Source: Gammaproteobacteria bacterium (GTDB taxonomy: Bacteria > Pseudomonadota > Gammaproteobacteria > SZUA-152). Taken from it: DNA of 49,969 nucleotides. The translations under genes were made by a program, and so were the position numbers. This document shows positions 6,561 to 28,570 of this stretch, in pieces (position 1 is the first letter of the stretch; each line of letters begins with the position of its first letter). Under the pieces are notes generated by a model, which was not told the DNA's origin, did not search any database, and saw only the letters and a list, made by a program, of their open reading frames with translations. The DNA is taken from the NCBI GenBank assembly GCA_021647505.1, contig JAKIUN010000023.1, positions 1 to 49,969 on the forward strand, read 5' to 3'.

Positions 6561-6602
6561 GAGTCGACAGTTTCACAAAGCCATCGTGGGCATGGCCCAC
6601 TC

Positions 6603-8534
<1,932 letters not shown>

Positions 8535-18425: not shown

Positions 18426-20258
18426 TCAGCTGGCCATACGGCTGGCACGCTTGCGATCATTTTCCTTGAGGTATTTTTTACGCAGACGGATGTTGAGTGG
18501 CGTTACTTCCACCAGCTCATCGTCATCGATGAATTCCAATGCCTGTTCCAGGCTCAGGTCGATAAACGGCGTGAGCTGAATGTTTTCATCGGTACCCGAG
18601 GCACGCACATTGGTCAGCTGTTTGCCCTTGAGACAATTGACAACCAGATCGTTGTCACGCGCGTGAATGCCGATAACACTGCCCTCGTAGACCTCCGTAT
18701 TGGCGCCAATGAACAACTTGCCACGCTCCTGCAGGTTCCACAGAGAATAACCCAGCGCCTTGCCCTGGCCATTGGAGATCAGCACGCCGTTAAGGCGCTG
18801 GCCGTAATTACCCGCCTTCATGGGGCCGTAGTGATCGAACACGCTGTAGATCAGGCCGGTGCCCTGGGTGGCGGTGAGAAATTCGGTGCGGAAACCGATC
18901 AGGCCGCGCGCCGGCATGATGTAATCGAGGCGCACACGGCCCTGGCCGTCGGGCACCATGTCCTTCAGTTCACCGCCGCGCTCGCCGAGTTTTTCCATCA
19001 CGCCGCCCTGGTGATCGGTCTCCACATCCACGGTAACATGCTCGTAGGGCTCTTCCCGGCTACCGTCTTCCAGCTCATGAATGATGACTTCAGGACGCGA
19101 TACACCCAGCTCGTAACCTTCACGGCGCATGTTCTCGATGAGAATCGACAGATGCAGCTCACCACGACCGGAGACCTTGAATTTGTCCGGGTCTTCGGTC
19201 TCTTCCATGCGCAGGGCGACGTTATGGATTAGCTCTCGCTGCAGACGTTCACGGATCTGACGCGAGGTGAGGAACTTGCCGTCCTGACCGGCGAAAGGTG
19301 AATTGTTGACGCCAAAGGTCATACTCACGGTGGGCTCATCCACGGACAGCGGGGTCATGGCCTCGACGTGATCCGGGTGGCACAGGGTATCGGAAATATT
19401 CAACGGATCGAGGCCGGTGAAGGCGATAATGTCACCCGCCTGAACCTCGGACTTCTCTATACGCTCCAGGCCCAGGAAACCGAAGATCTGTAGAATACGG
19501 CCACGACGTTGCTTGCCGTCGACGTCCACCACGATCACCGGCGAGTTGGCCTTGAACGTGCCACGGCTGATACGACCGATGCCGATGACACCCGTGTAGC
19601 TGTTGTAATCCAGCGCCGAGACCTGCATCTGGAAGGGGCCGTCCAGATCCACATTGGGCGCCTTGACGTGCTCGATGATGGTCTCGAACAGCGGCGTCAT
19701 GTCGCCGTCGCTGACGTCGGAATCCAGCCCGGCATAGCCGTTGATGGCAGAACAATAAACAATGGGGAAGTCCATCTGCTCATCGGTGGCGCCGAGACGG
19801 TCGAACAGGTCGAAGGTCTGATCCACGGCCCAGTCGGGACGCGCACCGTTGCGGTCAATCTTGTTCACCACGACGATGGGTCTGAGTCCCTGCGCCAGCG
19901 CCTTTTCGGTAACAAAGCGGGTCTGCGGCATGGGGCCATCGGCGGCATCCACCAACAGCAGCACCGAATCCACCATCGACATCACGCGCTCCACCTCACC
20001 GCCGAAGTCGGCGTGTCCGGGGGTGTCGACAATGTTAATGTGGTAATCATTCCACTCGATGGCCGTGTTTTTGGCCAAAATGGTGATGCCGCGCTCCTTC
20101 TCGATATCGTTGGAATCCATCACCCGCTCTTCGGCATCGCCACGGCCGGCCAGGGTGCCCGACTGCTGCAGGAGTTTATCGACGAGGGTGGTCTTGCCAT
20201 GGTCGACGTGGGCGATGATGGCTATGTTGCGAAGAGAGTTGCGGAGTTTCTGTCTCAC
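18426..20258 (-). CDS. typA: Ribosome-associated translational GTPase TypA/BipA
   Basis: This 610-residue protein has all the GTPase motifs: G1 AHVDHGKTT, the switch I region [11 protein letters not shown]3 DTPGHADF and G4 NKID. Domains II, III and V follow, with the BipA-specific C-terminus ([11 protein letters not shown], then [20 protein letters not shown]). It binds the ribosome and helps 50S assembly, especially in cold or stress. The first codon is GTG, because no ATG lies ahead of the conserved [15 protein letters not shown]. No strong ribosome binding site is visible. It is followed on the same strand, 245 bp later, by the H-NOX gene. Confidence 0.97.
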
Positions 20259-20363
20259 GGGATGCTGCTCTGGAATGATTGGGGCCGCGCATTATACAGC
20301 AAAACCGCAGGGCTTCACACAAACCGCGAAGGATCGGCCTACTCGATAATAAGGGAAGAAAAA

Positions 20364-20903
20364 TTGCACATCCAATTGCCTCACTCGGAAAGAAATCTGG
20401 CGATTAATGAGTTAATCAATCTTGATGATGGCCGAAAGTTGGGCTTTGTCGACGCTGGAGAATCCACAGGATTACCTATTTTTCTATTTCATGGGACGCC
20501 AGGGTCAAGAATATTCGGCTTTGAGGATGAGTCTCTGGTTAAAAACCTCTGGTTAAAAAAAGAAGGGTTGAGAATCATCACACCAGAAAGGCCGGGGTAC
20601 GGCTTGTCTGATTCGAGCAAAAAGAGGAAAATTAGAGCTTTTCATATCCCATTATCAGGGAGGCATTCCGAAGCGGGTATTTAGGCGCATATTCCGACAT
20701 ATTGCTGGTGACAAAGCCGTGGGGTATCGACTTTCCATCTTTGTCCCTCCCTATTATTATGTGGCATGGAGAATCTGATACCCTTAATGCCAATTACTCC
20801 AGCTAAAGGGTTTTCTAAAATACTCCCAGACTGCGAATGTCACTTCCTGGAAAGTGAAGAGCACACTAGAGAAATTATTCGAAGAATTAAAACCCAAATA
20901 TAA
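20364..20903 (+). pseudogene. Decayed alpha/beta-hydrolase gene with internal deletion and frameshifts
   Basis: A TTG at 20364, preceded by AAGGGA, opens a frame encoding KLGFVDAGESTGLPIFLF, HGTPGSRIFGFEDES and TPERPGYGLSD. This is the N-terminal third of an alpha/beta-hydrolase. The frame stops at 20684. A second frame then gives EAFRSGYLGAYSD, TKPWGIDFPSLSLPI and MWHGESDTL, the C-terminal region with the acid. A third frame, starting near 20789, gives MPITPAKGFSKILPDC and FLESEEH with the final histidine and stops at 20901-20903. The middle with the nucleophile elbow is missing. I infer one deletion of roughly 100 codons and a later frameshift. No function is expected. Confidence 0.78.
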
Positions 20904-21124
20904 AATAAGGCTAATGAGTGGCGTTTTAGGTAAACATAAAGGGCATTTCAGGAATAACTCACTGTTTTTAAAAAGGAAATAGCTTTCTTCCCACTGAGAT
21001 TATTGTCCGGCGATATATTCTTCAAGGCCGAGACGCGTTAAAAATATCCGACCCCAGAAAAAACCATGAAACTTTTAGCGCCCAATTATTCTGCCTGCTT
21101 GCAATCACCCAGCCCGGAAAATCC

Positions 21125-21364
21125 ATGAGCCATCACGAACTCGACGCCCGCCGCATGCTGTGCCCGATGCCGGTCATCAAAACCCAGAACCTTGTCGCCA
21201 CGCTGAAGCCCGGTGATACCGTGGAGGTATTCTGCACCGACCACGGCGCCCTCAACGACATCCCCGCCTGGAGCCGTATTAACGGCCACGAGGTCATCGC
21301 CAGCCACGAGTCGGATAGTGAAGTCAGCATCACCGTGCGTGTCGGTGACAGCGACGACGAATGA
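21125..21364 (+). CDS. TusA/SirA-like sulfur-carrier protein
   Basis: This 79-residue protein has the family motif RRMLCPMPVIKTQ, in which the Cys is the persulfide carrier. GDTVEVFCTDHGALNDIPAW and a beta-strand SITVRVG follow. TusA-type proteins relay sulfur in tRNA thiolation, molybdenum cofactor synthesis or sulfur oxidation. Several paralogues often exist, and I cannot say which role this one has. Its stop overlaps the ATG of the CDF transporter (ATGA), so the two are co-translated. Confidence 0.86.
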   Translation: MSHHELDARRMLCPMPVIKTQNLVATLKPGDTVEVFCTDHGALNDIPAWSRINGHEVIASHESDSEVSITVRVGDSDDE

Positions 21365-22524
21365 GCGCCCCCTCCGAACATGCCCCGCTAACCCACGACG
21401 AACGCTACCGCGAGGCTCGCCACGTCACCCTGGTCGGCTCGGCGGTGGATCTGGTGCTGGGTGTGACAAAGATCTTTGTTGGCTTCGTCGGCAATTCGCA
21501 GGCACTGATCGCCGATGGCGTACATTCCCTGTCGGATCTGGCCACCGACATCATCGTACTGTTTGCCATGAAGCACGGCTCGCGCGCCGCCGACGAGGAG
21601 CACCCCTATGGCCACGGCCGCATCGAAACCCTGGCCACGGTGGTACTGGGCGTCGCCCTGCTGGCAGTGGCCATCGGCATCGCTTATGACGCCAGCCTAC
21701 GCCTGCTCAACCCCGAACTGCTGCCCAAGCCCGGCTGGCTGGCGCTGAGCGTGGCGACCATCTCCATCGCCGCCAAAGAGGCCATCTATCACTACACCCT
21801 GCGCGTCGCCAACCGCCTCAACAGCCAGCTGCTGCGCGCCAACGCCTGGCACAGCCGCAGCGACGCCATTTCCTCGCTGGTGGTGGTCATCGGCGTCATC
21901 GGCGCCATGAATGGCGTGGTCTGGCTCGATGCCGTGGCCGCCATCACCGTCGGCGCCATGGTTGGCAAGATCGGTATCGGTCTGGCCTGGCACAGCTCAC
22001 AGGAACTCATCGATCGCGCCATGGAGCCCGAACAGGTGACAAATATCCGCACCGCCATCCTCTCCGTGAACGGTGTCAAGGCCCTGCACATGCTGCGTAC
22101 CCGGCGCATGGCCAATGATGGTTTGGTGGACGTACACATCCTCGTCGAGCCGAAAAGCAGTGTCTCTGAGGGCCACCTGATCAGCGAGCGGGTACGCCAG
22201 GCAGTGATGGAGAAAGTGGACGGCATCACCGAGGTCATGGTACACATCGACCCCGAGGACGATGAAGTCAGCGCCCCCAGCCATGGTCTGCCCATGCGTG
22301 ACGAGGTATTGACGCTGCTACGGCAGCGTTGGCAAGACATCGAAGAGGCGTCCAACATCGAGCACGTCCGCCTGCATTACCTGGACGGTAAAATCCATGT
22401 CGAGGTATCATTGCCACTGGAAAAAATGCGGGATATTGCTCAGGCTCGGGCTCTTGCACAGCAGCTGGTTCGCCTTGCTGAAGAGGAAGACAACATCGCG
22501 GATATCCAGGTCAGCTTTTATTAA
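21361..22524 (+). CDS. Cation diffusion facilitator family metal exporter
   Basis: The protein has 387 residues. About six membrane helices fill residues 20-210 and a cytoplasmic metal-binding domain ends it. Metal-site residues are H55 and D59 in the TM2 motif VHSLSD, and H164 and D168 in the TM5 motif WHSRSD. HPYGHGRIE in the loop between is family-typical. An HxxxD pair in both helices favours Zn2+ (or Co2+/Cd2+) over the Fe2+/Mn2+ subtypes, though this is inference. The C-terminal part is long and contains two soluble segments (TEVMVHIDPEDDEVSA and KIHVEVSLPLEKM), suggesting a duplicated or extended regulatory domain. It overlaps the TusA-like gene by 4 bp. Confidence 0.93.
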   Translation: MSAPSEHAPLTHDERYREARHVTLVGSAVDLVLGVTKIFVGFVGNSQALIADGVHSLSDLATDIIVLFAMKHGSRAADEEHPYGHGRIETLATVVLGVALLAVAIGIAYDASLRLLNPELLPKPGWLALSVATISIAAKEAIYHYTLRVANRLNSQLLRANAWHSRSDAISSLVVVIGVIGAMNGVVWLDAVAAITVGAMVGKIGIGLAWHSSQELIDRAMEPEQVTNIRTAILSVNGVKALHMLRTRRMANDGLVDVHILVEPKSSVSEGHLISERVRQAVMEKVDGITEVMVHIDPEDDEVSAPSHGLPMRDEVLTLLRQRWQDIEEASNIEHVRLHYLDGKIHVEVSLPLEKMRDIAQARALAQQLVRLAEEEDNIADIQVSFY

Positions 22525-22687
22525 GCACCACCGCAAAGGATCATTGCCAGCCACAAAGCGCACAGAAATAGTGCAGAGTGGCTGCCTTATTTGCACCAAG
22601 CCGACGCAACCTGGTCACTAATAAAACCGTGTATTACTGGAACTCGTTGATTAATCAATAAATTCAGCGAATGGCATATTTTCTGCT

Positions 22688-22797
22688 GAGGCTCTTGCAA
22701 AACTATTTCACAATAACGAAGAATCAATAGCCGACGACAACAGGCGGCACCACAAGCCATTGATTTATCGTGCTTTTTCAAGCTTCACAAGAGCCTC
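22688..22797. mobile_element. Short element bounded by 10-bp inverted repeats
   Basis: GAGGCTCTTG at 22688-22697 and CAAGAGCCTC at 22788-22797 are exact reverse complements bounding 110 bp with no convincing gene. The ends resemble insertion-sequence termini in style, but I cannot match a family. It lies in the 317-bp gap between the CDF gene and the AT-rich patch. Nothing else was recognised in 22525-22687. Confidence 0.45.
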
Positions 22798-22841
22798 TGT
22801 TGTTAGATTTTTTCGATATCTTATAAAAGGTGAAGTTTTTT

Positions 22842-23465
22842 ATGAAAAAAATATTGGTGATACTTTTATCTGTGTTATCAATATCTTGTTCGGCTCTCGC
22901 GGAGATGGATAGAGACGATTTCTATGAAAAAAATTCAAAACAATTAGATATAGTGTTGGAGGAAGTTAGCAAAAATCTATCAAGCCCAAGTGACGGTACA
23001 GAAGTGTGGTTTCCGTTATTCATGAAAACAAAGGTATCGCTGGGCATTAGTTCGCTAATACATACCCCTGATGGGTTGTTGATTAAAACGGGTGAATCAA
23101 AGATATCGTTTATTCGTGAAAAGTCAGAGGAAATGTTTTTTGTTGGTAAAGGACTGAGCTTACTGGAAGTATATTCAGACATATTTACGATGAACATGAA
23201 TGAAATTCTAAAAAAATACGCCGCAGAAAAAATATCAAAATATGGAATATTCGATTTCAAAATCGCACTCTCTATTCCAGGCTATGAGGAAAAAGGATAC
23301 TTCCAGAGTGATGAATTTTGGGTGTATTTCCTTATTGGCAAAGAAACATCAGAGGCATTCATTCTAAATAAAAATTTTCCAGGAGACGCGATACGTATTG
23401 GCGCTCAGGGCTTGGATCCTAAAAAATTTAAACATCTGTTAACTAATATTTCAAATATCAATTAA
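22842..23465 (+). CDS. Exported protein of unknown function, AT-rich
   Basis: From the ATG at 22842 (AAAGGTGA 8 nt upstream) the protein has 207 residues. A signal peptide (ILVILLSVLSISCSALA) is followed by EMDRDD. Cleavage after ALA is likelier than a lipoprotein site, because the residues before the Cys fit a lipobox poorly. The mature part is charged and mixed alpha/beta (LIKTGESKISFIREKSEE, then YGIFDFKIALSIPGYEE and FWVYFLIGKETSEAF). I do not recognise the family. Codon use is strikingly AT-rich compared with both neighbours, which suggests acquisition by transfer. The next gene follows after 23 nt. Confidence 0.65.
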   Translation: MKKILVILLSVLSISCSALAEMDRDDFYEKNSKQLDIVLEEVSKNLSSPSDGTEVWFPLFMKTKVSLGISSLIHTPDGLLIKTGESKISFIREKSEEMFFVGKGLSLLEVYSDIFTMNMNEILKKYAAEKISKYGIFDFKIALSIPGYEEKGYFQSDEFWVYFLIGKETSEAFILNKNFPGDAIRIGAQGLDPKKFKHLLTNISNIN

Positions 23466-23488
23466 GAGTAAATATCGAGAATAAATAT

Positions 23489-23812
23489 ATGGAACCTATA
23501 TCTGAGGAAGAAAAGCAAGAATTGAGAGCGATCTTGTCTTCTTTTTATGGTAACGGAGCGCTTAGCTGGAGGATGACGAAGCGTTCATTCGAATTGTTTG
23601 GTGAGCTTATTTCGAAAACCAAGCAGTGTGATTCCGCTATGAATTGGGTGCCGCGTTCGTTCTTTGTTGGTAACGTTCTCAATTGGGCAAAAAAACAGGT
23701 TCGACAAACCATTGTCAGGCACTTCAGAAAAGATGAAAATAAGCATTATTTGTTATGCATGCGGGGGGCTGCCCTAGCAATGAAAACACGGTTCTTCATA
23801 GCACAAAATTAA
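23489..23812 (+). CDS. Hypothetical protein of 107 residues, AT-rich
   Basis: It starts MEPISEEEKQELRAILSSF and is predicted soluble and helical. Two aromatic/basic segments stand out (ALSWRMTKRSFELFG and NWAKKQVRQTIVRHFRKDE). No signal peptide and no family that I recognise. It lies 23 nt after the exported protein in the same AT-rich patch, so the pair is probably one operon. Its 3' end overlaps the left arm of an inverted repeat (23767-23840). Confidence 0.55.
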   Translation: MEPISEEEKQELRAILSSFYGNGALSWRMTKRSFELFGELISKTKQCDSAMNWVPRSFFVGNVLNWAKKQVRQTIVRHFRKDENKHYLLCMRGAALAMKTRFFIAQN

Positions 23813-23840
23813 ATCTAACGAAATAAGCTCTAGGGCAGCC
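23767..23840. repeat. Inverted repeat at the right edge of the AT-rich patch
   Basis: GGCTGCCCTAG at 23767-23777 is the exact reverse complement of CTAGGGCAGCC at 23830-23840, with a 52-nt loop spanning the end of the preceding gene. No T-run follows. It could be a transcript-stabilising hairpin or a boundary of inserted DNA. Confidence 0.45.
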
Positions 23841-23931
23841 AGAAAATGAAAGAATCAGAATTACTACTGATAACACAACAATTTACCTTTAAACACACTG
23901 AAAACCTACTGAAAACACTGGAGGGCACGTA

Positions 23932-25341
23932 ATGTCTGCTCAAGATGTTCTGAATACCATTAAAGAAAATGATGTGAAGTTTGTCGATTTCCGCTTTACC
24001 GACACAATCGGCAAGGAACAGCACGTCTCGGTTCCCGCCCATACCGTCGACGAAGACGTCTTCACCGACGGCAAGATGTTTGATGGCTCCTCCATCGCCG
24101 GCTGGAAGGGGATCAACGAATCCGACATGATCCTGATGCCCGACACCTCGACGGCCGTACTGGATCTGTTCGCTGATGAAACCCAGCTAATCCTGCGTTG
24201 CGACATCGTCGAGCCTTCCACGGGCCAGGGTTACGAACGCGACCCCCGCTCTGTCGCCAGCCGCGCCGAGGCCTATCTGAAGAGCACCGGCATTGCCGAC
24301 ACCGCTTACTTTGGCCCCGAGCCCGAATTCTTCATCCTCGACGACGTACGTTGGGGCTCCAACATGGCCGGCTCCTTCTACAAGATCGATTCCGAAGAGT
24401 CCGAGTGGAACTCCGAGAAGGTCTACGAAGACGGCAATATGGGCCATCGTCCCGGCGTCAAGGGCGGCTACTTCCCCGTACCGCCGGTCGACTCCCTGCA
24501 CGACATCCGTGCCGCCATGTGTCTGGCCATGGAAGACATGGGTGTTGAAGTCGAAGTCCATCACCACGAAGTCGCCACCGCCGGCCAGTGTGAAATCGGT
24601 ACCGTATTCGATACCCTGGTGAAGCGCGCCGACATGAACCAGATCCTCAAGTACTGCGTACACAATGTGGCCCACGCCTACGGCAAGACCGCCACCTTCA
24701 TGCCCAAGCCGTTGGTAGGCGACAACGGTTCCGGCATGCATGTGCACATGTCACTGGCCAAGGACGGTGAAAACATCTTCGCCGGCAATGAGTACGGCGG
24801 CCTCAGCGAAATCGCGCTGTATTACATCGGCGGCATCATCAAGCATGCCCGTTCATTAAATGCCTTCACCAACGCCTCCACCAACAGCTACAAGCGCCTG
24901 GTGCCCGGCTTTGAAGCCCCGGTGATGCTGGCCTACTCTGCACGCAACCGCTCGGCCTCCATCCGCATCCCGTTTGACAGCAACCCCAAGGGCCGTCGCA
25001 TCGAACTGCGTTTCCCGGATCCCACCGCCAACCCCTACCTGGCCTTTGCCGCCATGATGATGGCCGGCCTGGACGGTATCCAGAACAAGACCCACCCGGG
25101 CGAGGCCATGGACAAGGACCTGTATGACCTGCCCGCCGAAGAAGCCGCACAGATTCCTACCGTCTGTCACTCCTTCGATCAGGCCCTGGAATGTTTGAGC
25201 GCTGATCGCGACTACCTGACCGCTGGTGACGTCTTCACCAACGACATGATCGATGCCTACATCGACCTGAAGATGGAAGAAATCACCCGCCTGCGCATGA
25301 CCACGTCTCCGGTTGAGTTCGATATGTACTACAGCTGCTAA
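23932..25341 (+). CDS. glnA: Glutamine synthetase type I (adenylylatable)
   Basis: This 469-residue enzyme has the GSI signatures: [16 protein letters not shown] near the N-terminus, the metal/ATP residues in [25 protein letters not shown], and [11 protein letters not shown]. The adenylylation site Y398 lies in [10 protein letters not shown], so activity is expected to be controlled by GlnE. It makes glutamine from glutamate, ammonia and ATP. GGAGG lies 8 nt before the ATG. Just upstream is a short direct repeat (ACTGAAAACCT then ACTGAAAACAC). I could not find a convincing sigma54 -24/-12 promoter, and glnL/glnG do not follow. A strong terminator ends the gene. Confidence 0.98.
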
Positions 25342-25365
25342 GCACGTAAGTACAAACAAATCAAG

Positions 25366-25403
25366 CCCTGTTTCCGGCAAGCGCGCCGGAAACAGGGTTT
25401 TTT
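25366..25403 (+). terminator. Rho-independent terminator of glnA
   Basis: CCCTGTTTCCGGC at 25366-25378 pairs perfectly with GCCGGAAACAGGG at 25385-25397 across a 6-nt loop, and six T residues follow. It lies 25 bp after the glnA stop. Confidence 0.95.
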
Positions 25404-25474
25404 CCGGGTATTAATCCCATGCCTTATATGTGCATTAATCCCGCGCCCTGGCAGATGTTATCAATATTTTCGGG

Positions 25475-27094
25475 CTAGCCCGTTTGGAACTGATCTACGA
25501 TGATCTCCAGATCATGCACCATTTTGACTAGCCGGGTATTAGATCCGTTGATATTCTGGGCTTCTTCTGCGGTATCCTGCGCTGCTTGATTAATAGTATT
25601 AATGCTATGGCCCATCTCTTCAGTCACCATGCTCTGCTGTTTGGCGGCCGTGACAATCTGGATATTCATGTCGTTGATGGTATCGATCATAGCGGTGATG
25701 GATTGCAGTGACTCACCTGCCGCGATCGAGTGTTTAACACTGTTTTGTGCCTGCTTGTCTCCTTGCTCCATCACCTTTACTGCATTATCTGCCCCTTCCT
25801 GTAGTGTTTCGATTATTTGTTGAATCTCCCGAGTTGACTGTTGAGTACGCTGTGCCAGCGTTCTTACCTCATCGGCAACGACGGCAAAGCCGCGCCCCTG
25901 TTCACCGGCGCGGGCGGCCTCAATGGCGGCATTAAGTGCCAGCAGATTAGTCTGTTCGGCGATTTCCTTGATAACAATCAGAACCGTGCCAATATTTTCG
26001 CTGTCACTTTCCAGCTTCAGAATGACTTTGCGGGCACTAATCACATTATCAGCAAGCTGGCCAATGGCAGTCACAGACTCGGAAACAATCCTATTTCCCT
26101 TCGCCACCTCTTGCTCTGCGCCCCTTGCCGCTTCAGCTGCTGAAGCCGCATTTCCAGCAACCTCCTTTACTGCGGATGACATTTGATTCATGGCGCTGGC
26201 CATCTGCTCTGCCTCCCCCTGTTGCCGTTTTATGGCATCCAAAGTTGAACCGTTTGCTTCAGACATCTCACTTGCGGCAGAGGAAAGAGTGGTAGTGGCG
26301 CCGCTAACCTTTACAATAGTGTTATGGATTTTCTCAATTATTTTATTAAACGTTGTTGCCAACAGCGCGACTTCATCACTGCCCGAAATGTTCAAGCGGG
26401 CGGTCAAGTCTCCATTACCCTGTGCGATATTTTTCATAAGCGTGTCAACCTCTGTGAGTCGGTTAACAATTGAGCGAGAGAATAATGATATGAGTCCGGC
26501 CAATACCAGCAGTGCGATGATAAGACCGCTTAACATACTAAAATTTGCTTCCGAAAGAGTATTTCCTATCAGAGAAGTACGGTTGCTTGTTAATTTCTCA
26601 TACTCGGTTTTCAGTTCCTCAAAAGCGGCAAGTGCAGGGCCGTCACTTATCTTGACCATGGCATCAATTTCTACGGCACTTTTTCCGAGAGATACGGCTT
26701 TCTTTACGGCATCAGTCGCTTCTCTGTACTTGGATGCCACTCCCGCGATTGCAGACAAGGCGTTGTCTTCTGTTACAGAAAGATCTTCCAATTCTCGATA
26801 GTTGTCTAGTATGGACACTATTTCAGTGTGATTGGCAACAATTCGGTCATAATGTTTAGGCGTACCTCGCAGGACATAATTCTTGAAATTATGGATACCG
26901 CCACCATAGCCAAATTGAGACTTTATTCCCATTAAAAGATTTTGACGTTTCACCACCTGTGACTGGTAGTGATGCCACTCATAATTTATACGCGAAATTG
27001 AATTTTCTACATAAAAATATACAGCAGAAAAAATTACCACGACAGACCCCAGGAGCATATAGCCCCTCGCTTTAATGGAAAGATTGGTTAGCAT
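25475..27094 (-). CDS. Methyl-accepting chemotaxis protein
   Basis: The protein has 539 residues. TM1 is at about 12-28, a periplasmic helical sensor at about 30-185, TM2 at about 187-207, then HAMP and a cytoplasmic signalling domain with the conserved tip [20 protein letters not shown]. The sensor contains the distinctive run [16 protein letters not shown], an otherwise rare motif that I have seen in other signalling proteins but cannot tie to a ligand. No CheR-tethering pentapeptide ends the protein. It works with CheA/CheW, which are not in the window. Its coding style is somewhat more AT-rich than the second receptor at 28653-30575. The 251 bp behind its start contain no clear gene. Confidence 0.95.
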
Positions 27095-27345: not shown

Positions 27346-28128
27346 CTAGTCGCCCCCACCCACAGAACAAGGTTTACCTCTATCTGCTGCGTGGAGCTGC
27401 CGTAACGATCCATCATCCTGAACTTTCAAAATGATGAATGTTTTGTCAGGTTTGCGAGTGACTGAAATTTCCCGGGAAGTGGGCTTGTAACGGTAGTCGA
27501 GGTAGCAATGGTCGCGGGGGTTGGAGAGGATCTGAGGGGTGAAGATAACACCGATACCTCCCCCGCAATGGGCGGAGCGGGTGATGAGACCGGGGTGGCC
27601 TTCGCGGTGTAGGCGCTGGCCGATCTGTTGACTGAGATCGTATTTGCCAGGAGTGGCCAACTGGGGGTAGTCGGCCAGTTTGGGGCGGAAATCAAACAGC
27701 AGGCCGTCGCACTGAACCTGGAAGATGCGGCGTTCGCCAATGATGATTTTTGGTTGTTGGCGGAAGTCGGCGTCGTGGAGGAATTGCAGCCAGTGGTGGG
27801 TGGTTTCGAAGATACTGGTCTCGAGGCTGTCGGCGCCGTACCAGACGCCGAAGTTGCCATCGGAGTAGCGGCTGCGGGTCCAGTTTTCGAACGGGTAGCG
27901 GATGGCGGCGCAGTAGCGGGCCTGTTCGAAAGGGCGGTTGATGATGGGGGAGTCACCGAAGTCGGCGGGTTTGGCGGCGAGTTCGGCGGCGATGGCAGTG
28001 TGCCAGTCGTCGGGCTGGTCGCTGAGGTCGTCGAACAGGTTTTGGGATTCGCGCAGGCTGACGATGTTGCGCAGCCAGTCGCCGTGGTAATCGATGCTAC
28101 AGAGTCCGCTGAGGAGGCGGTCGATCAC
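27346..28128 (-). CDS. RES-domain toxin of a type II toxin-antitoxin system
   Basis: The protein has 260 residues and a GTG start overlapping the antitoxin stop by 4 bp. The RES fold is marked by an Arg in [12 protein letters not shown], a Tyr/Glu block in [14 protein letters not shown], and a Ser in [14 protein letters not shown]. These are the residue types that give the RES family its name. RES toxins of this kind (for example MbcT and ParT) attack NAD+ or ADP-ribosylate targets. The exact chemistry here is not visible. Toxin after antitoxin in one message is the usual order for RES-Xre loci. Confidence 0.85.
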
Positions 28129-28541
28129 TGGCCGCGAACCTGATCCAGGTAGCTGCGCAGCATGAGCAGGCCGGCGAAGCCGTGCTGGCTGACGACCTGC
28201 ACGGGGGTGATGTTGTCGAAGGCCCGGTTGGGTGCGCGCATCCAGGCGTAAGCCAGTTCGCGGTTGTGAGGGAACAGCAGGCGTAGGGATTTGTGCACGC
28301 TGAACAGGTGACCGACACGATCCAGCAGGTCACGGTTACTGCCCAGGGGCTGGCCCTTGCGGTAGCGGGCGAGGGTGGTGCGGCTGCCGGCGTCGAGGCC
28401 GAGCAGATCGAGTTGTTCTTCGTTGCTGAGTCGCCAGTGCTGGAACAGTTGCATGACCATGCGGGCGAGGCCCTGGCGGCTTTCTTTGTTGTGGATATCC
28501 GGGCTGGGGGCGTGGGTGTCGTGGGGGGTGAGCAAGGCCAT
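28125..28541 (-). CDS. Xre/MbcA/ParS-type antitoxin
   Basis: From the ATG at 28541 the protein has 138 residues. A first helix-turn-helix-like part ([26 protein letters not shown]) precedes the C-terminal antitoxin domain of the DUF2384/MbcA type: [12 protein letters not shown]-like helices, [20 protein letters not shown] and [19 protein letters not shown]. This domain blocks the RES active site in known complexes. The frame extends to an ATG at 28562, but that codon lies inside the palindrome at 28555-28570 and has no ribosome binding site. The ATG at 28541 has GGAG 6 nt upstream and is preferred. It probably represses its own promoter. Confidence 0.85.
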
Positions 28542-28554
28542 TTCGAGCTCCGAT

Positions 28555-28570
28555 TGTAACATCTGTTACA
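28555..28570. promoter_or_regulatory. Palindromic operator of the RES-Xre operon
   Basis: TGTAACATCTGTTACA is a palindrome with 6-bp arms (TGTAAC/GTTACA) and a 4-bp centre. It lies immediately downstream of the -10 element and upstream of the antitoxin start, where antitoxin binding would block transcription. Binding by this Xre protein is inference. Confidence 0.7.

Follow-up and report, generated by a model that had tools for sequence, protein, structure and literature searches.

An acquired gene pair upstream of glnA: a likely T6SS effector-immunity pair that may have entered as an integron cassette

Knowledge of how T6SS effector-immunity pairs pass from one genome to another is incomplete. 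In Serratia marcescens, Ssp1/Rap1a and Ssp2/Rap2a are described as small proteins secreted by the T6SS, each with a periplasmic immunity protein (PMC3533786). In Vibrio cholerae, T6SS effector-immunity modules have been gained horizontally, and a 2017 study likened their insertion to integron recombination while stating that evidence of an integrase at work there was lacking (PMC5361080). Different from that Vibrio case as it is presented there (PMC5361080), R′ and R′′ boxes at both ends of the segment and relatives linked to attC sites point to an integron integrase at the locus described here. A 2020 study reported that Aux3, a T6SS effector module of V. cholerae, was acquired via integrase-catalysed site-specific recombination (PMC7721734), and for this reason integrase-driven acquisition of T6SS modules is already known as such. 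Aux3 is described as prophage-like, with a P4-type integrase and att sites of its own (PMC7721734), whereas the present locus is a two-gene segment with integron core sites. With its empty sites, core-site boxes, integrase and attC-linked relatives, it makes a testable case for the integron route, and it points to a small effector family in which two cysteines are invariant among 19 aligned copies.

The window, which is the whole stretch of 49,969 nucleotides analysed here (GenBank assembly GCA_021647505.1, contig JAKIUN010000023.1), comes from a gammaproteobacterial genome referred to as G000. Two ORFs of the ORF list, p1 and p2, are both present in the patch between a CDF gene and glnA (Table 1). 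An earlier note, made from the sequence alone, had described this patch as two genes with codons more AT-rich than those of CDF and glnA, and this was borne out, with a GC3 of 0.34 for p1 and 0.45 for p2 vs 0.77 for each of the two flanking genes. Of the 34 ORFs in the window that reach 150 aa and do not overlap, p1 has the lowest GC content. The calculated pI is 9.9 for p2 and 5.3 for mature p1. Elsewhere in the window, a RES-domain toxin and an Xre/MbcA/ParS antitoxin form a pair on the minus strand (27346–28562), and an alpha/beta hydrolase-like frame recognised by eye (~20400–20960) is interrupted by stops and is probably a decayed gene.

Table 1. Features of the acquired segment and its surroundings, in window positions.
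Feature	Position	Strand	Remarks
NtrC-like dyad GCAC-N7-GTGC	22560..22575	+	Upstream of glnA; half-matching second copy from 22593
sigma-54-type -24/-12 element TGGCATATTTTCTGCT (GG-N10-GC)	22672..22687	+	Ends directly before the insert
110-bp MITE-like element	22688..22797		Exact 10-bp inverted ends; flanks TGCT/TGTT (TGCT/TGCT in G001)
R′ box GTTAGAT, integron core-site-like	22802..22808	+	Start of the acquired segment; matches GTTRRRY
p1	22842..23465	+	Exported, 207 aa; predicted Mog1/PsbP-like fold; proposed periplasmic immunity protein
p2	23489..23812	+	Basic, soluble, 107 aa; C47, P55 and C90 invariant (19 aligned copies); proposed T6SS effector
R′′ box ATCTAAC, inverse-core-site-like	23813..23819	+	Exact complement of the R′ box; matches RYYYAAC
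Possible attC left-half remnant	23820..23843	+	Reaches the chromosomal junction; without the attC right half
glnA, glutamine synthetase	23932..25341	+	Name from the earlier note and by eye; found in 12/12 genomes searched

The patch was compared with six members of the genus besides the window genome (G001–G006). The contig of G002 begins at glnA, and its site was therefore left out of the count. Among the six testable members, G000 included, the interval between CDF and glnA is filled in two (G000 and G001) and empty in four (G003, G004, G005 and G006), where CDF and glnA are spaced by 254–289 bp; the comparison of the tusA-CDF-glnA interval in close relatives thus did yield the empty sites that the earlier note had suggested looking for. 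The same two genes throughout the genus at this site, with matching composition, would have spoken against an insertion, as that note had pointed out, and only these two of the six carry them. In the alignment, the breakpoints fall after TTCTGCT(G) on the left and at AGCC on the right. The AT-rich patch is an acquired insertion, and we regard this as firm; horizontal insertion upstream of glnA, as first proposed in the note, is supported. In G001, p1 and p2 also lie between CDF and glnA and share 99% and 96% amino-acid identity, respectively, with those of the window. The dS between G000 and G001 (window 22842–23812 vs L052 for the pair) is 0.05 for p1 and 0.03 for p2, compared with 0.21 for CDF and 0.23 for the first 663 nt of glnA, and the MITE and the leader adjoining p1 and p2 show background divergence (92% and 89% identity). 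A recent exchange of the p1-p2 gene body is possible.

The description of the patch as bounded by inverted repeats was half right: both repeats exist where they had been located, but neither is an end of the insertion. The 110-bp repeat is a MITE-like element separate from the two-gene insertion. It folds above chance (z -4.1), and the target duplication that it has of its own, TGCT/TGCT in G001, marks it as a complete element. Its ends, GAGGCTCTTGCAAAACT, resemble the ends GAGCCTCTTGCAAAACTC of other elements in the genome (five matches), and the three of these five that were examined all measure 161 bp and are flanked by exact target duplications of 4 bp. An end sequence was seen at C13:6966, where reading by eye recognised neither a nearby partner end nor a transposase of an autonomous parent IS. 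When the 110-bp element is removed, ...TGCT comes directly before GTTAGATTT, and the empty site of G004 reads ...TGCTGTTAGCC. The exact 11-bp inverted repeat (23767–23777 and 23830–23840) has its left arm within the coding sequence of p2 and matches at only 10 of 11 positions in the closest relative, G001, and for these reasons it does not bound the insertion. The same 1.4 kb holds six listed inverted pairs of at least 12 nt, and the 11-bp repeat is treated as a chance occurrence.

A different repeat, absent from the earlier note, lies at the ends of the segment: GTTAGATTT at 22802 has its exact 9-bp complement, AAATCTAAC, at 23811. A 9-bp complement of this kind turned up once in 20,000 dinucleotide shuffles and, with the 9-mer kept fixed, five times in 20,000; a 7-bp complement turned up 42 times in 20,000. 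The consensus of integron sites is given as GTTRRRY for the core and RYYYAAC for the inverse core (PMC12901181). Complementary R′ and R′′ boxes at both ends are what a circular cassette predicts. The empty site of G004, GTTAGCC, matches 6 of the 7 positions of GTTRRRY, its first six letters are those of local R′ boxes such as GTTAGCA, and it has GTTAG (5 bp) in common with the left junction of the filled site. Among the empty loci this core site is found in G004 alone; G003 reads ATTAGCC, and G005 and G006 are more divergent. About 24 bp remain between the R′′ box and the chromosome, this tail folds poorly, and strict and relaxed attC scans found no complete attC with a right-hand R′ box in the window, so that the segment can be no more than a decayed cassette and is not an intact one. 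As a separate observation, the tail holds, at 23819–23830, an exact 12-bp complement of 23603–23614 inside p2, which adjoins an 11-bp complement to another stretch of p2, and an origin of the tail by template switching is conceivable.

The genome of the window encodes a full-length integron integrase, IntI (G000:C39; 445 bits against a cut-off of 265), with a Pfam phage integrase domain, and the relaxed scan places an attC 1.4 kb from it. Partial integron-integrase matches on contigs C105, C28, C36 and C84 of the same genome suggest several past integrons. The strict attC scan (GTTRRRY/RYYYAAC with one mismatch) gave a single site across 15 loci and none in 186 kb of shuffled DNA, a low yield explained by the use of GTTAGCA or GTTATGC in the local attC sites; the relaxed scan gave 5 sites in the 15 loci vs 1 in 1.13 Mb of shuffled DNA, one of the five (L133, 61 nt) being short and weak. 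A relative of the pair stands beside a scanned attC in G004:C69. Folding and reading by eye found attC-like hairpins before the p1 relatives of G003:C69 (z -6.9) and G000:C102 (z -4.1), neither of which was called by the attC scan (0 in L046 and L044). Two further stretches were noted in these surroundings. At L045:11363–13791, attC sites surround a Tae4 gene and a lipoprotein gene, with a DNA/RNA non-specific endonuclease further on. Next to the p1 relative of G003 (L046:6238–7136), a small protein that by eye looks peptidase-like, with motifs of the HxxGxAxD and HxH kinds and no Pfam match, is followed by a lipoprotein, and the two are possibly another effector-immunity cassette. Overall, the insert resembles a gene cassette whose attC has decayed, and an integron route for it is plausible.

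The glnA genes of gammaproteobacteria are commonly driven by NtrC and sigma-54, and the consensus sequences of the NtrC dyad and of the sigma-54 -24/-12 element were used for motif scoring upstream of the insert. The GG-N10-GC element, with 8–9 of 11 consensus letters, is present in all 11 glnA upstream regions examined, and the NtrC-like dyad in 10 of the 11, being missing in G008. Taken alone, neither motif is significant in the window (3 dyads found vs 0.96 expected, and 1 sigma-54-type element vs 0.47). A conserved motif of the sigma-54/NtrC type precedes the insert and is probably the glnA promoter. The sigma-70 and terminator scan remained at chance level and recognised no terminator on the gene strand; since p1, p2 and glnA also run in the same direction, they are probably on one transcript.

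No Pfam family matched p2 at E ≤ 10 and no NCBIfam family at E ≤ 1, a p2 profile had no match below E 0.2 among PDB sequences, and p1 has no significant match in Pfam or NCBIfam; a search of 20000–26000 against Rfam found nothing at E values up to 1. Within the family, 8 of 12 genomes gave p2 homologues at E ≤ 1, some of them weak. Of the genomes sampled from the class, 13 of 369 have p2 homologues, as do 3 of 398 in a phylum-wide sample at E ≤ 1e-4, the window genome being included in both figures; nine loci were found in the genome collection. The owners of the pair include Marinimicrobium and Microbulbifer. A p2 relative searched against plasmids and phages gave one weak, unannotated Pseudoalteromonas match in the former and none in the latter. 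The count of 32 p2 loci leaves out G005:C231 (E 0.08) and G011 (E 0.62), a second piece each of G004:C182 and G056:C48, and three duplicates (L087, L090, L093); G510, G564 and the Pseudoalteromonas match were found after the count and stand outside it.

In 28 of the 32 loci p2 adjoins an ORF that is predicted to carry an export signal, vs 71 of 259 control genes under the same scoring; this exported partner lies upstream of p2 in 18 of the 28 and downstream in 10. These 28 pairs include one that is cut by a contig end (L101) and one with a short partner (L110). The four loci without an exported partner are at contig ends (L045 and L049), broken (L105) or, as read by eye, beside IS genes (L091). 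The invariance of C47, P55 and C90 holds for an alignment of 19 of the 32 copies, from which L095, any copies that were interrupted or doubtful, and those of G001 and G004:C69, as near-identical, had been excluded; an earlier alignment that included two interrupted copies kept C47, V54, P55 and W66. Aligned with seven partners, p1 is 99% identical to the G001 copy and 15–21% identical to the other six. On inspection, p2 is interrupted while p1 is open in G003:C69, G004:C182, G005:C12, G005:C184 and G056:C48, and the opposite applies to at most one locus, G112:C11; assembly errors in draft genomes could account for some of the interrupted p2 copies. By these comparisons, p2 belongs to a family unnamed in Pfam and NCBIfam, with a neighbouring partner that is predicted to be exported in most loci. 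In addition, G000 (L043, G000:C51 ~6580–7550) and G004 (L048, G004:C182) carry another lipoprotein gene with a p2 paralogue between two genes which we take, by eye, to be rodA and mltB; the corresponding interval in G003 is short and empty.

The clearest link of the family to the T6SS is found in G313, where TagF-TssA-TssB-TssC-p2-p1-Hcp follow one another on one strand, the machinery genes being confirmed by Pfam. Hcp lies within 2 kb of p2 at three further loci, cut by the contig end in G008:C99 and broken in G002:C18 and G278:C35, and a Tae4 gene (E 1.1e-21; Ssp2 is a Tae4 amidase) adjoins p2 in G004:C69. Searched with three profiles (Hcp, VipB and Tae4), the fetched DNA showed at least one of them beside 5 of the 32 p2 copies and none beside the other 27; these profiles were built from sequences of the same loci, and their matches are therefore not independent of the earlier neighbour finds. 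None of the three was found in the window around its own copy of the pair. The window genome has T6SS genes on contig C104, namely TssC, TssA, Hcp, TssF, TssG and a ClpB-like ATPase, with TssB recognised by eye. A gene on C104 with a Tae4-like start has no Tae4 Pfam match and was not used as evidence. VipB is present in G000, G001, G008 and G313 and was not found in G002–G006 (G002–G005 carry p2-like genes; genomes 74–94% complete). Membership of p2 in the Ssp4 pore family was considered and set aside, as 95% of the Ssp4-family matches are reported to cover more than 200 residues (PMC12669606).

The AlphaFold2 model of p1, made with 8 sequences and of moderate quality (pLDDT 73), has an alpha/beta fold of the PsbP/Mog1-like type. 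Its fold matches are PsbP (2xb3, Z 9.7), TplEi/Tli4 (5h7y, Z 9.4), Tli4 (4r1d, Z 9.0), the counterpart of the lipase Tle4, and Tsi3 (4luq, Z 6.9), with 7–12% identity to Tli4 and Tsi3 over aligned residues; Foldseek gave no match for the p1 model at E ≤ 0.001. The rows 2xb3, 5h7y and 4r1d are tied in VIA-align, and because immunity proteins are tied with PsbP, the fold is no proof of immunity. The p2 model is all-helical and weak (pLDDT 69), and fold searches with it gave no match worth naming. Of the remote homology search and structure prediction proposed in the earlier note, the latter gave a PsbP/Mog1-like model for p1, and neither gave a convincing match for p2. The guess of an effector with its immunity protein has gained support from the conserved pairing, the T6SS-linked relatives and the predicted p1 fold; of the two proteins, the soluble one is the likelier effector. 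All in all, p1-p2 is likely a T6SS effector-immunity pair.

We are inclined, if only somewhat, to the view that p1-p2 is a mobile T6SS effector-immunity pair which came to rest as an integron cassette at a secondary site behind the sigma-54/NtrC-type promoter of glnA. In this course of events, p2 would be a small, basic, soluble effector, probably cargo of the Hcp tube, and its site of action, at a guess, could be the periplasm or the inner membrane of rival cells; p1, with its Mog1/PsbP fold, would be the Sec-exported immunity protein that binds it. The pair would have arrived as a gene cassette, which IntI would have recombined into the chromosome at a secondary site, G|TTAGCC, lying 2 bp past the -12 element of the predicted promoter. 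The right half of the cassette's attC would have been lost later, and the 110-bp MITE would have entered afterwards, separating the cassette from the promoter. Both genes of the pair would probably now share one nitrogen-regulated transcript with glnA. A somewhat unlikely but by no means negligible course is that the same T6SS pair entered by illegitimate or homologous recombination, the R′ and R′′ boxes being coincidental. This would agree with the failure to find a complete attC in the window, with a junction that has just 5 bp in common with an empty site, and only in G004, and with the second lipoprotein-p2 pair, lodged between chromosomal genes in G000 and G004 where the scan called no attC; against it stand the rarity of the 9-bp complement in shuffles, the relatives beside attC sites or attC-like hairpins and the presence of IntI in the genome.

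We think it doubtful that the genes form a module unrelated to the T6SS, such as a pair serving in cell-envelope stress or as chaperones, or a toxin-immunity system of another kind, with incidental T6SS neighbours. The 27 of 32 loci without the three neighbours looked for, the lack of detectable VipB in G002–G005 and the many roles served by PsbP-like folds would fit such a module, whereas the G313 pair sits between tssC and hcp within a T6SS core operon, four more loci have Hcp or Tae4 neighbours, and genes for Ssp4-type T6SS effectors are reported to be often distant from T6SS genes (PMC12669606). Reversed roles, in which exported p1 would be toxic and p2 its cytoplasmic partner, are improbable. 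That p1 comes first in 18 of 28 pairs and second in 10 leaves room for them, but p2 is interrupted with p1 open at about five loci and the opposite is seen at one at most, and the predicted p1 fold resembles known immunity proteins. T6SS cargo normally has no Sec signal, which also counts against p1 as the toxin. In the description of the Serratia Ssp/Rap pairs, it is the immunity proteins that carry signal peptides, the effectors having none (PMC3533786). A small transposon with the 110-bp element at one end and the 11-bp repeat at the other, in the sense of the earlier note, is hardly credible: both repeats do exist, but the former is complete with a target duplication of its own, the latter has an arm in p2 and is imperfect in G001, and neither p1 nor p2 has a transposase match.

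Returning to the effector-immunity cassette as the favoured reading, it is possible, and we put this forward tentatively, that T6SS pairs of this unnamed family circulate in the genus as integron cassettes that IntI drops behind host promoters, here that of glnA. If so, interbacterial weaponry and glutamine synthetase would share one transcript behind the nitrogen-stress promoter of glnA, which suggests that the landing site alone could wire an effector-immunity pair to nitrogen stress.

With the Ssp/Rap pairs, as described for S. marcescens (PMC3533786), the present pair shares a small, basic, soluble protein without a localisation signal beside an acidic partner with a signal peptide, the occurrence in a T6SS cluster, and exported genes on either side of the effector. 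Different from Ssp2, p2 has no Tae4 or other Pfam match, and different from the Rap proteins, which are reported to have a new fold of their own (PMC3533786), p1 is predicted to be PsbP-like. In Tse3-Tsi3 and Tle4-Tli4 of the Pseudomonas aeruginosa T6SS, a Mog1/PsbP-like domain occurs in the immunity protein, Tsi3 being periplasmic; the reported structural neighbours of Tsi3 include MOG1P and PsbP (PMC3792639). Unlike the muramidase Tse3, p2 has only 107 aa and no recognised catalytic motif. As for the route of entry, the segment differs from the cassettes at chromosomal attG sites described by Loot et al. (2024, Nat Microbiol) in having no attC right half, and for this reason it is probably no longer mobile. 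In other respects it is like those attG-inserted cassettes (Loot et al. 2024, Nat Microbiol): single, external to any array, beginning at G|TT, and located in a genome with IntI.
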